The notes beneath the pieces are model-generated. The model saw only the letters and a program-made list of their open reading frames with translations, was not told where the DNA came from and did no database searches. Position numbers and translations under genes: made by a program. A stretch of DNA of 64,000 nt from Bacteroidales bacterium (lineage in GTDB: Bacteria; Bacteroidota; Bacteroidia; Bacteroidales; Lentimicrobiaceae), in NCBI GenBank assembly GCA_024636955.1, contig JAGXGB010000029.1, forward strand, positions 1 to 64,000. Direction: 5' to 3'. Every line of letters begins with the position of its first letter. Position 1 is the first letter of the stretch. Of this stretch, positions 19,066 through 52,663 are shown piece after piece.

Positions 19066-19137
19066 GTTATATACCATCCTGTGAATATTTCCTGATAATT
19101 ATATGGGCTCAAATCAAGTTCATAATCCATTGGATTT

Positions 19138-19225
19138 ATAAGCGTCTTTTAAGCGTTATACAAACGATGTTTAATCGTCTAAAGACGCTTATAAGACGCT
19201 TATATAACGCTTATGTATCGCTTAT
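19138..19225. repeat. Eight 11-bp repeats forming an inverted array
   Basis: Read in consecutive 11-mers from 19138, the sequence gives four left-handed units (ATAAGCGTCTT, TTAAGCGTTAT, ACAAACGATGT, TTAATCGTCTA). Four right-handed units follow (AAGACGCTTAT twice, ATAACGCTTAT, GTATCGCTTAT). The first left unit is the exact reverse complement of the first right units, and the others are near complements. No base is gained or lost between units, so the 11-bp register is strict over 88 bp. Confidence 0.88.
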
Positions 19226-19283
19226 GATGGTAATGAATCTTAAATGCATCATGAAAGCTTTTAATACACCCTTCGGTCATGGC

Positions 19284-38769: not shown

Positions 38770-38835
38770 GTTTAAGTGAACTCTATATTAGGTTTAATTG
38801 AACCCTTCATCAAGTTTATTTGAACTCTCTTTTAG
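38770..38835. repeat. Three 22-bp direct repeats between divergent promoters
   Basis: GTTTA starts at 38770, 38792 and 38814, exactly 22 bp apart. Units 1 and 3 agree at 18 of 22 positions (GTTTAAGTGAAC..., GTTTATTTGAAC...). Each unit contains an imperfect palindrome GTTTAAnTGAAC. The array lies between the aminotransferase and pgk promoter boxes, so protein binding here could affect both. Confidence 0.75.
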
Positions 38836-38882
38836 GTAGTCTGTTATAAAGATGCAATCACAAATATGATGTGGTTTTTTCT

Positions 38883-38917: not shown

Positions 38918-40174
38918 ATGAAAAGCATTGATTCTTATGATTTTAGCGGAAAGCGTGCATTAGTCAGGGTTGACTTTAATGTACCATTGAATGAAGGTTT
39001 GAAGATCACCGATACTACCCGAATAGACTCTACCCTTCCAACAATACGAAAGATACTTGATGGTGGTGGATCAGTTATACTGATGTCGCACCTTGGAAGA
39101 CCAAAGAAAAACTTTGAAAACAAATTGTCTCTAAAGCATATAGTGCCCTACCTGACCCAGGTTTTAGGACAAGAAGTGAAGTTTGCAGATGATTGCATGG
39201 GTGAGTCAGCAAAGGAAATGAGTGCAAACCTCAAACCCGGTGAAGTACTTCTGCTCGAAAATCTAAGATATTACGAAGAAGAAGAAGGAAAGCCCCGGCT
39301 TGCTGATGATGTATCAGAAGAAGATAAGAAAGCAGCAAAAACTGCCGTTAAGGAAAAACAAAAGGAGTTTACCAAACAGCTTGCTTCATATGCCGACTGT
39401 TACGTGAATGATGCATTTGGCACTGCCCATAGGGCGCATGCTTCCACTGCATTGGTTGCTGCCTATTTCCCAAATGATAAGATGTTTGGGTACTTAATGA
39501 ATAGTGAAGTTGCCAGCCTCAATAAAGTATTAAAAGAAGGTAAAAAACCTTTTACAGCAGTGCTTGGGGGCGCAAAAGTATCGGGCAAGATCCAGATCAT
39601 TAACCATCTTATTGATAATGTTGATAACCTGATCATAGGAGGTGGAATGATGTTCACCTTTATTAAAGCCATGGGTGGAAAAATTGGAAATTCATTGGTT
39701 GAAGAAGACTTACTTGAGCTTGCAAAGAACACCATGGAAGGTGCCAATTTACATGGTATTAAACTTATACTTCCAGTTGATGCTATTGCAGCTGATGGCT
39801 TTTTCAATGATGCTAAGACCCAAGTAGTAAAGGCCAATGAAATCCCTGATGGATGGTTAGGCTTAGATATAGGACCTGAATCAGTTAAGCTTTTTGATAA
39901 AATCCTTATGGAATCAAAAACCATTTTGTGGAACGGTCCTATGGGAGTGTTTGAAATGCCTGCTTTTGCTGAAGGTACTATTCAGTTAGCTCAATCAATT
40001 GCCAAAGCAACGGAAAAAGGCGCTTTCTCCCTTGTTGGAGGCGGTGATTCAGTTGCTGCAGTAAACAAGTTTAATCTGGCAGATAAAATAAGCTATGTGA
40101 GTACAGGTGGTGGTGCTATGCTTGAATTTATAGAAGGAAAGATCCTTCCAGGTGTTGCAGCTATCGAAGAATAA
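38918..40174 (+). CDS. pgk: Phosphoglycerate kinase
   Basis: The 418-residue protein has the PGK N-terminal signature [16 protein letters not shown], substrate residues in MSHLGRPK, nucleotide-site sequence [16 protein letters not shown] and the C-terminal [12 protein letters not shown]. It catalyses ATP formation from 1,3-bisphosphoglycerate. An insertion rich in charged residues around 120-150 ([19 protein letters not shown]) is typical of Bacteroidota PGK. A terminator hairpin follows, present in two copies. Confidence 0.97.
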
Positions 40175-48035: not shown

Positions 48036-50462
48036 CTACTGTTTTACGAAAACCTTAACAGCTGATTGTCCGTCAAAAGTTATGCGAAGAAGATAAGTTC
48101 CCGCATTAAGCTGATGTAATTCAATTGAATTATTAATTATCTCAGTGCTACACAAACGATTACCTCCTAAAGTGAAGATTTCGGCCTTACCTGCTGGTAT
48201 TCCTTCAATATAAATACGGTTTACAACCGGATTAGGATAGATTTTAATTGCAGCAGATAGCGCATTTTCAATTCCTGTTCCCAGGAAGATGACTTCTTCA
48301 ACATCGGCGCCAACAACAGTAACATTCCCATTTACAGGATCATAACCTTCGGCAGTTGCAATATAAGGATACTCACCGTCCTGAAGCTCAATTGCTGCTG
48401 TTCCATCTTCACCTGTAATGAGGATTAAACCATTAACTGAAATTTCAGCACCGGCAAGAAAACCGGCTTCTGAGTGTACCATGAAAGTTACTTGATAAAG
48501 AATAGGCGCCACAGGTTCAAGGATAACCGTTTCATTCATATTGGATCCGCTGATGTCAACTGATCCGTTCCCGGTTATATAACCTTCGAGTGTAACAGTA
48601 TAGGTGTAGCTTCCATCAGGCAAATCAATACTTGCAGTTCCATCAAGAGCTGTGGTAAGTGAATCAGGCTGACCGGTAATTCCAATGCCGGCAGATGCCA
48701 AGGATGCTCCTTCAGGATCAGTAACAAGGAATGAAAGTGTGTACAATGGGGATGTGGTGCTGATTAGCTGAACAGCTACTTCAGCATTTGCATCATTGAT
48801 CAGGGCATCATCGGCATAAGTATAGAATCCTTCTTTTGACACTGTAAATGGATATACTCCATTAGCAAGTTGAATGGATGCAGTACCTTCTGGACTTGTG
48901 TATAACAGCTCACCGTTTACACTAATTTCTGCTTCAGCAACAGCAGCCATGCTCTCATTATAAACATAGAAACTGAGTTGATAGCTCATAGGGACCATCG
49001 TAAATTCCACCTCATTAACTCCAGTTCCTGTAGTAAAAGTACCGGTATAATTAGCATAACCATCAAGCATGGTAGTGAAGCTATGGTCGCCTGGAGGTAA
49101 CATACTCCAAACAACACCTTGAGCATTGGTCAACAAAGATCCTTCAATTCCTTCAACAGAAATTTCAACACCTGCTAGAGGAGCACCACTTTCATCAATG
49201 GCTGTAAATACAGTTTGGTACATGCAGGCAGGCATGAAGTTAACCCTACCAAGAGCAGGATCATCTACAATATGAGAAACAACACCTTCAATACTTGTTG
49301 AATCCTGTGTTGCTACTCCCCAACAATTGTACATTGCCGATTGCACAACTGGGCCGTTATTATACAGATCGTAAAGTAAACCTCCATTTCCATTATTAGA
49401 AAACTGATTTCCACCCGGATTAAAGTTAGCCGGATCAGAGTTGCCCATATTTACCTGTGGATATCCTACAATGGTTATTCCCCATAGGTTTCCCGAGATA
49501 ATATTACCGGTAAGTGTTGCAACCAGATTTGATGATGCACTGCTAGCTGTTAAATTGATACCACTTCCGCCTAAGTTTGGAAGATTCTGGATGTTATTGT
49601 CAGTAATGGTATTGTAACGAATTACTCCATTGATAGGGCTACCAGTCAGAGTGATTCCATACCGATTCTGATCAACAATATTAGAATCGATTACCACATT
49701 TCCCGGAACACCTAATATTGAAGAATAAGCTATTCCACCCGACTGTAAAGCTCCATTACCAATTACAGTGTTACCAACAATATAGGTAGTGTCTCCATCA
49801 CCGGCAGGCCCCATGTTAATTTGAGGTCTGTTGCTGTTTTCGGTTGTATTCCCAAAAATGTAATTATTGCGTATAACAGCTTTAGTTCCAACATTTGAAC
49901 CTGAAGCTATCGCACCACGTTGATTGTAGGTTAAAGTACAGTTTGTTATTACTGCATGCCCAGAAACATCGAGTGCAGCTCCTGAAGCATATGATCCGCT
50001 AGTAGAGCCACTTCTGTAGTATGTTTTATACAATTTGCTACCATGAATAGTAAAGGTACCGGAAATTGCTCTGATACCTCCACCAAAAAGTAAGTCAGCA
50101 TTTGTGATGTGGGTAAAATGATCGGTAAGTAACTTAATACCACGCCACCTATTAGTTGATAAGCTATCGATGGCAGTGAAAGTTGCTTTAACAGGCGCAT
50201 CAATAATTAATGTTCCACCCGATTCTATACCGGTTAGATCATGAAATAATACTGTTACGTCTTCGAGGATGTTTAAAGCATCCTGTGGAGCGATCAAAAT
50301 TGTTGTAGTAATTTCATAGTGATCGGTGTTCCAGGTTACAGCTCCTGCTGAGTTCTGTACCAGTGAATCGAGTGTCCAGGTTACCCCTGTCCCGGGGGTA
50401 CTAAACTGTGCCTGAGCAAGCAAGGCAAACAAAGTAAAGAACAATGTAATGGACTTTTTCAT
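48036..50462 (-). CDS. Secreted beta-helix protein with PEGA-like repeats and T9SS sorting domain
   Basis: The 808-residue protein has a signal peptide (ending LLAQAQ), a right-handed beta-helix (residues about 60-390, with Asn/Gly-rich turns) and four repeats of about 80 residues starting near 400. Each repeat follows the pattern 'AGVEISVEG...DGTASIxLxDGxYxYTVxxEGY', as in CarboxypepD_reg/PEGA-like domains. The C-terminal 80 residues (IKIYPNPVVNRIYI, ending VKVFVKQ) form a type A T9SS sorting domain. The protein is therefore exported across the outer membrane and probably attached to the cell surface. A substrate is not evident. A promoter box lies about 120 bases upstream. Confidence 0.85.
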   Translation of the reverse strand: MKKSITLFFTLFALLAQAQFSTPGTGVTWTLDSLVQNSAGAVTWNTDHYEITTTILIAPQDALNILEDVTVLFHDLTGIESGGTLIIDAPVKATFTAIDSLSTNRWRGIKLLTDHFTHITNADLLFGGGIRAISGTFTIHGSKLYKTYYRSGSTSGSYASGAALDVSGHAVITNCTLTYNQRGAIASGSNVGTKAVIRNNYIFGNTTENSNRPQINMGPAGDGDTTYIVGNTVIGNGALQSGGIAYSSILGVPGNVVIDSNIVDQNRYGITLTGSPINGVIRYNTITDNNIQNLPNLGGSGINLTASSASSNLVATLTGNIISGNLWGITIVGYPQVNMGNSDPANFNPGGNQFSNNGNGGLLYDLYNNGPVVQSAMYNCWGVATQDSTSIEGVVSHIVDDPALGRVNFMPACMYQTVFTAIDESGAPLAGVEISVEGIEGSLLTNAQGVVWSMLPPGDHSFTTMLDGYANYTGTFTTGTGVNEVEFTMVPMSYQLSFYVYNESMAAVAEAEISVNGELLYTSPEGTASIQLANGVYPFTVSKEGFYTYADDALINDANAEVAVQLISTTSPLYTLSFLVTDPEGASLASAGIGITGQPDSLTTALDGTASIDLPDGSYTYTVTLEGYITGNGSVDISGSNMNETVILEPVAPILYQVTFMVHSEAGFLAGAEISVNGLILITGEDGTAAIELQDGEYPYIATAEGYDPVNGNVTVVGADVEEVIFLGTGIENALSAAIKIYPNPVVNRIYIEGIPAGKAEIFTLGGNRLCSTEIINNSIELHQLNAGTYLLRITFDGQSAVKVFVKQ

Positions 50463-50589: not shown

Positions 50590-50654
50590 GGTTTTATCAT
50601 CAAGCTTCCAAAATCCATGTATTCAATTTGTCATTTCATTATGTTTAAGTTTAC

Positions 50655-50760
50655 ACTTATCATACTGTTTTTATACGGTTAGACTACGGTTACTCTACCT
50701 TGAGGGTAGAGTAACCGTAGTCTAACCGTAGTCTAACCGTATAGTATCTGTAGAGTATAT
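50655..50760. repeat. Inverted array of nine 11-bp repeats
   Basis: From 50706 the sequence reads GTAGAGTAACC, GTAGTCTAACC twice, GTATAGTATCT and GTAGAGTATAT in strict 11-bp register. On the left, 50655-50698 holds four 11-mers ending in GGTTAGACTAC and GGTTACTCTAC, which are exact reverse complements of the right-hand units. A 7-base loop (CTTGAGG) separates the arms. The central 25 bp on each side pair without mismatch. Confidence 0.88.
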
Positions 50761-50854
50761 CTTAATGTAATAAAACGAAATATAAAGGCATACTGGAATA
50801 CGACTGAAAAGAGGCAATCCATAAAAATTACGCATCAGCTACTTACGAATTAAG

Positions 50855-50880
50855 AAAAAAGCCCTGCAAAGAGCAAGGCT
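50855..50880 (-). terminator. Terminator of the 50909 gene
   Basis: On the minus strand AGCCTTGC pairs with GCAGGGCT (one T-G pair) across a short loop and is followed by six T residues. Confidence 0.8.
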
Positions 50881-50908: not shown

Positions 50909-52663
50909 CTATTCCATCATAGTTTTCACGTTATTAACATTTACTTGCTCGCCCTTTCCATTGATCACACTCTTGATCTTGCTTTCTTTATGCCCTCCAT
51001 ATAACCAGTAAGTAATCTTACGATGTATATTCTTCTCAATATGCTCAGGTGTTTCAATTGCCTGATCAACTATAACCGGAGCTTTGAAGAATACACAATA
51101 GATACCTAATCCCCAGGCTTCATGGCTTTCGACACCATCTGACACTTTATACGAAGCATATCCATTAGTTGAGCCATGGTTAAAAGCTTCAGCAGTTGGT
51201 GGGTCATAAGGCATCTCGCTTTGATAAAAATACACCTTCCCTTCATTTCCGTTCCAAAGAGTCTGGTATTCATGGAAGTGCTCACAAAACAGTCCGTACA
51301 CAGTAACCTTGTCACCATTTACAATAAGTCCATTTTTACATGTATTTTCCGTCCACCCTACATTATTTCCGTGGTCAGCCCTCCAAAGCCATGTATGATC
51401 AATATGCACATTGTTGCTGTTGATCTCCATGCAACTTTGGGTTTTCCCTTCTCCATAACCACCTACCCTGATAAATATATCGTGCAGGAAGGTCGGATTC
51501 GCTTTATGATCATTGGTTGAATTGGGCTCTCCAACCCTAACCAATGTTTCTGACTCTATTTTTCCGGCATCAATAATTAGCCCGCTAATTGACACACCGC
51601 TAACATCCGAAATTTCAATTATTGCATTACCGTTCGCTGGGCGTAAGGTAGGCAATCCAATTCCTGTTACAATTGTACCGGGACGCGAAATTTGGAGGCT
51701 TTGGTCGAGTAAATAGATACCAGGACAAAAGAATAGATTTTTCCCATCTGCAAGAGCTGCATTGATGGTAATGGAGTTATCCTTTTTAGGTTTTACAATG
51801 TAAAATTCATTAAGGGAAAATACTTCATCATTGAACTTTCCACTACTCCAGCTAATGCCTGTACTGTTTTCTTTGAGTTTAGGTATGCTGAGGGCAAAAT
51901 CTGAATTATCGATTATCATATAAGGTTTTTCGCGAACAAGAGGAGTAGCACCAATAACTGTGTAAGGATTATCGGGCCATTTATCTTCAGGTGTATTTGA
52001 AACACCCATAAACATTATGTTCCAGCTGCCGGCTTCCCACTTTTGCATCTCAGTGTTGCGGGTGAACCATTGCTGCTGTCCGCCTGCCAATATAGTTCCA
52101 TCAACTTTTGAATCAGCAAGGAAACCACCGCTCGCCCAGCCATTGTCATGTAGCTGCACGTCACCTTTGATGTGCACTCTGCGCATTGGAGCAGCTTGTG
52201 AAACTCCCCAAATGTTTAAAGCGCCGGCGGGAGTTTCAATTGTTAAATTTTCAATTGAGCGCCAGAAATTAGTAGTAACATTTCCGTTTTTTTCTCCTTT
52301 CGATAGGATAATACCATTAATAACCACATCATTAGGCGATTGACCTAAACCGATGTAGCTCATATAATAGCCAACCTTTAAATTTAAATTGTATGCACCG
52401 GGCTTGAATAGCAAAGCATACCTACCTGAGCCGAATTCACTACTTCTTGGATGCTGAAGATTGTATAGTGTATCAATCAATACTTGAATCTCTTGCATAT
52501 CCATTTGATCATCAAAAATGAAAACGTTTTCATTAAAGGCTTCATTATTGAATTTTGATGCAAAGGCAGGCAATCCGGCAGAGATTGGCTCTAATGACTG
52601 AGTTTTGGCTGTTTGCTGACAAAGAATTATAGCCATGAGACTAATAAAAATCCTGATGTTCAT
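50909..52663 (-). CDS. Secreted right-handed beta-helix protein, carbohydrate-active type
   Basis: The 584-residue protein has a signal peptide (ending TAKTQS) and a long parallel beta-helix of the GH55/pectate-lyase type. The segments HTWLWRADHGNN, VTVYGLFCEHF, YQSEMPYDPPT and EAWGLGIYCVF belong to a family also found in actinomycetes, where it is often mislabelled 'adenylyl cyclase'; nothing here suggests a cyclase. Acidic and histidine residues clustered on one face (HIDHTWLWRADHG) are candidates for a glycosidase or lyase site. No T9SS domain is present at its end. A polysaccharide substrate is plausible but not shown. Confidence 0.7.
   Translation of the reverse strand: MNIRIFISLMAIILCQQTAKTQSLEPISAGLPAFASKFNNEAFNENVFIFDDQMDMQEIQVLIDTLYNLQHPRSSEFGSGRYALLFKPGAYNLNLKVGYYMSYIGLGQSPNDVVINGIILSKGEKNGNVTTNFWRSIENLTIETPAGALNIWGVSQAAPMRRVHIKGDVQLHDNGWASGGFLADSKVDGTILAGGQQQWFTRNTEMQKWEAGSWNIMFMGVSNTPEDKWPDNPYTVIGATPLVREKPYMIIDNSDFALSIPKLKENSTGISWSSGKFNDEVFSLNEFYIVKPKKDNSITINAALADGKNLFFCPGIYLLDQSLQISRPGTIVTGIGLPTLRPANGNAIIEISDVSGVSISGLIIDAGKIESETLVRVGEPNSTNDHKANPTFLHDIFIRVGGYGEGKTQSCMEINSNNVHIDHTWLWRADHGNNVGWTENTCKNGLIVNGDKVTVYGLFCEHFHEYQTLWNGNEGKVYFYQSEMPYDPPTAEAFNHGSTNGYASYKVSDGVESHEAWGLGIYCVFFKAPVIVDQAIETPEHIEKNIHRKITYWLYGGHKESKIKSVINGKGEQVNVNNVKTMME

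Follow-up and report, generated by a model that had tools for sequence, protein, structure and literature searches.

The window analysed here, a stretch of 64 kb of Bacteroidales DNA, carries between two genes an array of 11-bp units in inverted arms, which the sequence-only reading took for a hairpin-forming array that had recently expanded by one unit. The question is whether this array is a local expansion around a hairpin or one copy of an element with a plan of its own.

Structure of the window element

Direct reading of the sequence confirmed the array at its place, with 11-bp units in inverted arms (Table 1). The number of units is ten, five per arm in register, and not nine as had been counted, and the element extends to about the outer limits given in Table 1. 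Seven bases (50699-50705) lie between the unit arrays, and the 25-bp hairpin with a 7-base loop described before is the 26-pair, 5-nt-loop structure with one pair opened. In an ungapped hairpin search, this structure was the top hairpin of the window with 26 pairs, the runner-up having a score of 15, and the longest perfect stem is 26, against 9-12 in 40 versions of the window shuffled by dinucleotide. The single-strand DNA fold of the element gave z = -8.1, and TRF found an 11-bp period with a 100% match at 50712-50741.

Table 1. Positions of the elements and neighbouring signals in the window.
Feature	Position	Strand	Remarks
Family-B element	19124..19239		four 11-bp units per arm, CG at unit start; termini AATCCATT and AATGAATC
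Whole family-A element	50633..50771		opposed arms of five 11-bp units each, 7-bp centre, AATG-like terminus per side
Left terminus AATGAAAT	50633..50640	-	registered offset 58
Left arm	50644..50698	-	five GTA-N8 units, minus-strand reading from 50698 downwards
Perfect 26-bp stem, 5-nt loop	50674..50730		inner two units per arm and start of the third
Right arm	50706..50760	+	five GTA-N8 units starting at 50706, 50717, 50728, 50739 and 50750
Right terminus AATGTAAT	50764..50771	+	registered offset 58
Intrinsic-terminator-like site	50860..50880	-	just past adjacent gene 50909-52663; not part of the element

A search of the window with Rfam returned tRNA only, with no known RNA family at the element, and no intrinsic terminator (GC-rich stem plus T run) was predicted there, the two overlapping predictions both falling on the terminator-like site of Table 1. 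As the sequence-only reading had placed it, the element is downstream of this site on the minus strand, where the order is terminator of gene 50909-52663, window copy and start of gene 48036-50462, whose product is secreted and bears a Por secretion tail. No partition genes were found beside the elements of the window; the neighbours encode secreted and peptidase-type proteins. Judged by IspG, the two relatives that carry a name are Bacteroidales MAGs, with 55 and 52% identity.

Family A across the genome

The genome that holds the window (G000, 3.22 Mb in 83 contigs, completeness 93%) was searched with 90 bases of the window element, and nine places were found, which we call family A. Counting outward from the centre, GTA is present at units 1-5 in 18, 18, 17, 16 and 14 of the 18 arms of these nine copies, and at unit 6 in none (0/18). 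This unit-register table rules out the proposed recent one-unit expansion, each arm of the window copy having exactly five GTA-N8 units, like nearly all 18 arms. The right arm merely appears longer because the outer units have eroded unequally, and its "extra copy" is the third unit, which has eroded less.

The inner two units of family A are near-constant, and the perfect stem results from this. In units 3-5, the GTA/TA columns stay 93, 93 and 83% constant, respectively, and the remaining columns have means of 53, 50 and 56%. Hairpin pairing is lost in these distal units; since they keep GTA and TA though unpaired, the pattern is that of contact bases and suggests that each helical turn offers one site to a DNA-binding protein. 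The spacing is strict: in 738 kb of the genome, five consecutive GTA at spacing 11 occurred 13 times, and at spacings 8-10 and 12-14 no GTA run exceeded four. Among the 17 runs of at least four GTA at spacing 11, 16 belong to family-A copies and one to another array (L187).

Families B and C and a common terminus

The sequence-only reading had also noted a second array of the same architecture and a different sequence at 19138, and this was borne out. Searching the genome with the 19138 array gave nine places, distinct from those of family A, which form family B. Family C, with seven places in the genome, was discovered when the reversed control of the family-B pattern search unexpectedly gave matches. 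Arms have four units in families B and C and five in family A. CG is found at units 1-4 in 17, 18, 17 and 12 of the 18 family-B arms and in 14, 14, 12 and 12 of the 14 family-C arms, and is absent at unit 5 in both. The bases constant in every unit are GTA and TA in A, CG and TTA in B, and CGA in C. A single inverted duplication, with relatives free of 11-bp units, was not seen; the units recur in other copies, in other families and in congeners.

Beyond the last unit, all three families have an AATGRATC-like terminus in fixed register, a candidate for the terminal inverted repeat of a MITE; its signal is weaker in A than in B and C, where it is strong. At offset 46, AATG is present in 13/18 family-B arms and AAT in 11/14 family-C arms; AAT is present at offset 58 in 8/18 family-A arms. 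For the word AATGAATC, the best-scoring offset is 46 in B and C and 58 in A; the mean matches there are 6.33 (B), 6.43 (C) and 4.67 (A) out of 8, versus about 2.4 for all offsets taken together.

The elements are about 116-139 bp long, and the A-C places total 25. Within each of the three families the unit number is constant between copies, on which ground a variable-number tandem repeat was rejected. Across the 25 places, sequence similarity among copies is confined to the element; the copies are dispersed, have unrelated flanks and lack coding capacity, as is expected of MITEs.

An 11-bp self-similarity scan of the examined sequence of this genome yielded three further arrays (L188, L190 and L196), besides L187. 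The common terminus is found at their ends as GATGGTAATCAATC in L190, GTAAAATGAATC in L188, GATTCATT and AATGAATC in L187, and GATTCATT in L196. These four are single candidates and weigh less than families A-C. In L052 (3124-3144), the terminus word occurs in an 11-bp direct duplication (AGATTCATTTG, AGATTCATTTT), possibly a remnant element.

Hairpin versus phased array

Strong single-strand folds, found in family A and in the majority of B and C copies, speak for a structured RNA or a REP-like hairpin acting post-transcriptionally, on stability or termination. Permutation tests of arm coupling gave this explanation one further argument, because arm-to-arm matching within a copy was above that between copies at unit 2 of family A (P = 0.0006), but none of the remaining units of A and no unit of B or C showed such coupling. 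On these permutations the hairpin was rejected as the conserved feature of B and C, and hairpin-centred functions such as pausing are not favoured, since arm coupling exists only in family-A unit 2. An RNA or hairpin is also at odds with the distal A units, which retain GTA and TA while unpaired, with the L196 and L188 arrays, which show no fold (z = -0.14 and 0.15), with copies in every orientation relative to genes, and with a window element that has no terminator-like site; we consider it rather improbable. As coupling is limited to unit 2 of A, L196 and L188 are unfolded and GTA/TA is kept without pairing, the common feature is a phased, usually mirror-image array and not a hairpin.

Genomic setting and search for signs of mobility

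No ORF of at least 80 aa is overlapped by 23/25 A-C copies; the two exceptions belong to family C, with limits placed only approximately about the midpoint of the locus, and they overlap ORF predictions of 163 and 103 aa. The copies are intergenic in all gene orientations. Target-site duplications were not apparent at those ends of families B and C that were read, by eye only, and an orthologous gap without the element aligned too poorly to reveal an empty site. The RAYT Y1 transposase (PF01797) gave 0 matches in this genome, at its completeness of 93%, and matches in 5/14 control genomes. Family A had no match in plasmids or phages and family C none in phages, and a plasmid or phage origin was dismissed on those searches.

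In a scan of IMG/VR, the family-C pattern gave 21 contigs, in which the arrays that were read are mostly of one phage unit, ATGCGAACGCA. This 11-bp tandem unit occurs in most of the 21 phage contig stretches (L235-L255), which vary in GC, for example at L254:702-731 and L236:4526-4555. In the two phage contigs whose reading frames were checked, the array lies inside a gene, which we take to encode a DUF1376/YdaU-like replication protein. The phage array may be an iteron-type origin, and these arrays are probably separate from family C. The family-A pattern gave 7 contigs in the IMG/VR scan, which by eye are mostly coding coincidences.

Distribution among relatives

In the genus survey (19 genomes, own included), the family-A pattern was found in our genome, G003 and G012, and the family-B and family-C patterns each in our genome and G008. 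Among the 393 genomes of the order survey, the strict family-A pattern was present in our genome and in G150, which belongs to another family, and the family-B pattern in our genome and G008. Among congeners, the families have a patchy distribution. Copies in G012 carry the unit in the opposite orientation, and those of G003 and G150 are direct arrays, so that the mirror plan varies and is not universal. In G150, the direct 11-bp arrays consist of GTAGATTAACC and GTAGATCGACC (L222:1390-1620, L223 and L226), and the direct array of L222 adjoins three CGAAAATCAAT-type units, that is, two 11-bp arrays side by side. One and the same gap (L040:19256-19329 / L212:9900-10050) holds a family-A-like direct array in G003 and a degenerate 22-bp array in our genome.

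Whether positions are conserved was examined with the five G008 copies, in three cases via a single flanking gene. One family-C copy lies downstream of an M16-peptidase gene, a place that B occupies in the window. One family-B copy corresponds to a gap of our genome without any A-C element, and for the three others our ortholog of one flanking gene sits on a contig without an A-C match. These positions bear on the view that the arrays are operators of a global transcription regulator, which arose in place by selection and without mobility. Operators would be expected neither at the 4/5 G008 sites that are unshared nor at the many copies that lie between convergent genes or downstream of both (4/9 of family B between convergent genes), even if intergenic placement, contact-like conservation and the one orthologous gap with B in our genome and C in G008 speak for them. 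That single shared gap may be due to chance, and the unshared sites and the family swap are as expected of turnover. We hold operators for quite unlikely, and note that the similarity between copies could also stem from selection on sites without transposition.

Unrelated tandem arrays in multiples of 11 bp

The preference for 11 bp is not confined to families A-C. In 738 kb of our genome, where most of one set of sampled stretches had been chosen around A and B matches, unit length was a multiple of 11 in 24/40 unrelated non-coding gapless tandem arrays (unit of at least 15; A-C excluded). The lengths of these 24 are 22, 33, 44, 66 or 132 (binomial P = 1.5e-15 at 1/11), versus multiples of 11 in 2/31 arrays of 11 sampled congeners (Fisher P = 3.5e-6). 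One array of our genome and four of congeners had been dropped before this count for their A-C-like words. In the other set of stretches, picked regardless of arrays, 15/36 were multiples of 11 (unit of at least 9; C included, which is carried by contigs C18 and C22). One such array in the window has a 22-bp unit in 3.1 copies (38770-38837), upstream of the gene at 38918. Tandem arrays of the congener G001 (L056-L075) favour 7- and 8-bp units, such as GAAGTAA and GATTCAAA, and not multiples of 11.

Intergenic DNA outside arrays had no general 11-bp signal, and direct units of 22 and 33 bp had no internal 11-bp sub-repeat; the sub-repeat score averaged z = 0.39 over 28 direct arrays, with larger values in some units of 44 to 132 bp. 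The excess of such arrays over the congeners would fit a mutational habit of 11-bp duplication steps, with no dedicated element at all, the arrays being by-products of slippage and quasi-palindrome correction. Such a habit predicts neither fixed unit numbers, a common terminus and mirror symmetry nor contact-like conservation in diverged units, and it seems to us unlikely to account for families A-C.

Comparison with known systems

By title and start of abstract, none of the papers found in literature searches concerned dispersed mirror-image 11-bp arrays in bacteria, and the nearest systems among them are BrickBuilt and the LIMP/HyLIMP palindromes. BrickBuilt is described as a MITE with an internal minisatellite, present in 19 copies in Porphyromonas gingivalis (PMC4596501). 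Like A-C, it belongs to Bacteroidales, is species-limited and always intergenic, has tandem repeats between flanks with short inverted ends, which the termini of A-C may resemble, and lacks a transposase; it differs in its 23-nt direct repeats of variable number between a long leader and tail and in TIRs that match IS5-family elements, and the sections considered describe no fixed-number mirror-image 11-bp arrays (PMC4596501). LIMP/HyLIMP of the Lobosphaera mitochondrial genome are likewise dispersed intergenic palindromes of several related families, with a short loop, stems composed of 5- or 10-nt units and compensatory changes (PMC4524435). However, they come from an algal organelle, their unit number is variable, the arms are often unequal and the hairpin form is conserved, and the sections covered report no registered terminus (PMC4524435).

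REP/BIME are described as dispersed extragenic palindromes of bacterial chromosomes too, including CGTC-type ones in Bacteroidetes, but with 20-40 bp, a GTAG or CGTC tag and frequent ties to RAYT transposases (PMC3733652). A REP element with RAYT was rejected, the A-C elements being formed of repeated units over a much longer span and PF01797 not being found. A ParR/parC-type partition site was rejected as well, no partition genes being adjacent in the window. The iterons of R1 parC are 11 bp long. There are ten of them in two sets, the same split as in family A, and each is described as binding one ParR dimer, with the DNA wrapped on a protein helix; however, R1 parC is a single site per plasmid, made entirely of direct repeats and beside the par genes, whereas A-C are dispersed and mirror-image (PMC5016525).

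Another possibility is that the DNA is wrapped here by gyrase or a nucleoid protein, the phased units bending it around the protein over about 130 bp and acting as a strong gyrase site. The E. coli gyrase motif is described as symmetric, with 130 bp, two 47-bp arms and a GC periodicity of 10.75 bp (PMC6379681). Strong gyrase sites thus resemble A-C in symmetry, in a length of about 130 bp and in arms phased at about one helical turn, and the family arms of 44-55 bp come close to 47 bp, but these sites are described with degenerate GC phasing and a 36-bp core and without repeated sequence-specific units (PMC6379681). A period of about 11 bp is also given as the usual one in bacteria (PMC4132750). 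GC-phased curvature was nevertheless rejected, as the GC phasing of the seven unit types was no stronger than that of shuffled units (combined P = 0.80) and that of 28 direct arrays was likewise not above shuffles (P = 0.39). Moreover, the units reach within a few bases of the centre, so that the 36-bp non-periodic core is absent, and gyrase leaves the family-specific sequences and the termini unexplained. We regard a gyrase or nucleoid-protein site as improbable.

A model for the elements

A fixed number of units, a strict 11-bp register, the termini, the sharing of one plan by several families and dispersal in the genome can be read directly from the copies. Each arm being a run of 11-bp units, the bases constant in every unit share one face of the helix. 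The explanation that we prefer, tentatively and at somewhat less than even confidence, is that these are MITE-like dispersed intergenic elements, with arms that serve as arrays of protein-binding sites in phase with the helix; the protein, its binding and the mobility are what we infer from the sequences. Cooperative protein binding together with MITE-like spread is favoured because of the fixed number, the strict register, the contact-like constancy and the dyad. A putative sequence-specific protein would bind cooperatively, with about one protomer or dimer per turn, and assemble over 8-10 sites into a symmetric filament or wrap. The families would be versions with changed binding specificity, and the copies would spread as MITE-like non-autonomous elements recognised at their termini.

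A more speculative extension, which we think unlikely as it stands, is a chromosome-wide 11-bp ruler, with a conserved scaffold (8-10 phased sites, dyad and common terminus) and exchangeable units. Its reader would be a putative fast-evolving DNA-binding protein whose specificity shifts between species and whose action would also quantise other intergenic arrays at multiples of 11 bp.

Unrelated sequences on one strict geometry in one genome point to spacing and symmetry being read, and not letters alone. The genome offers about 25 ready-made sites for isolating the putative reader protein. Should the scaffold persist while specificity is exchanged, these elements would be a natural case of a fast-evolving genome-wide binding array. 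The quantisation at multiples of 11 bp in this genome, unseen in the sampled congeners, makes the role of helical phase in repeat formation testable.
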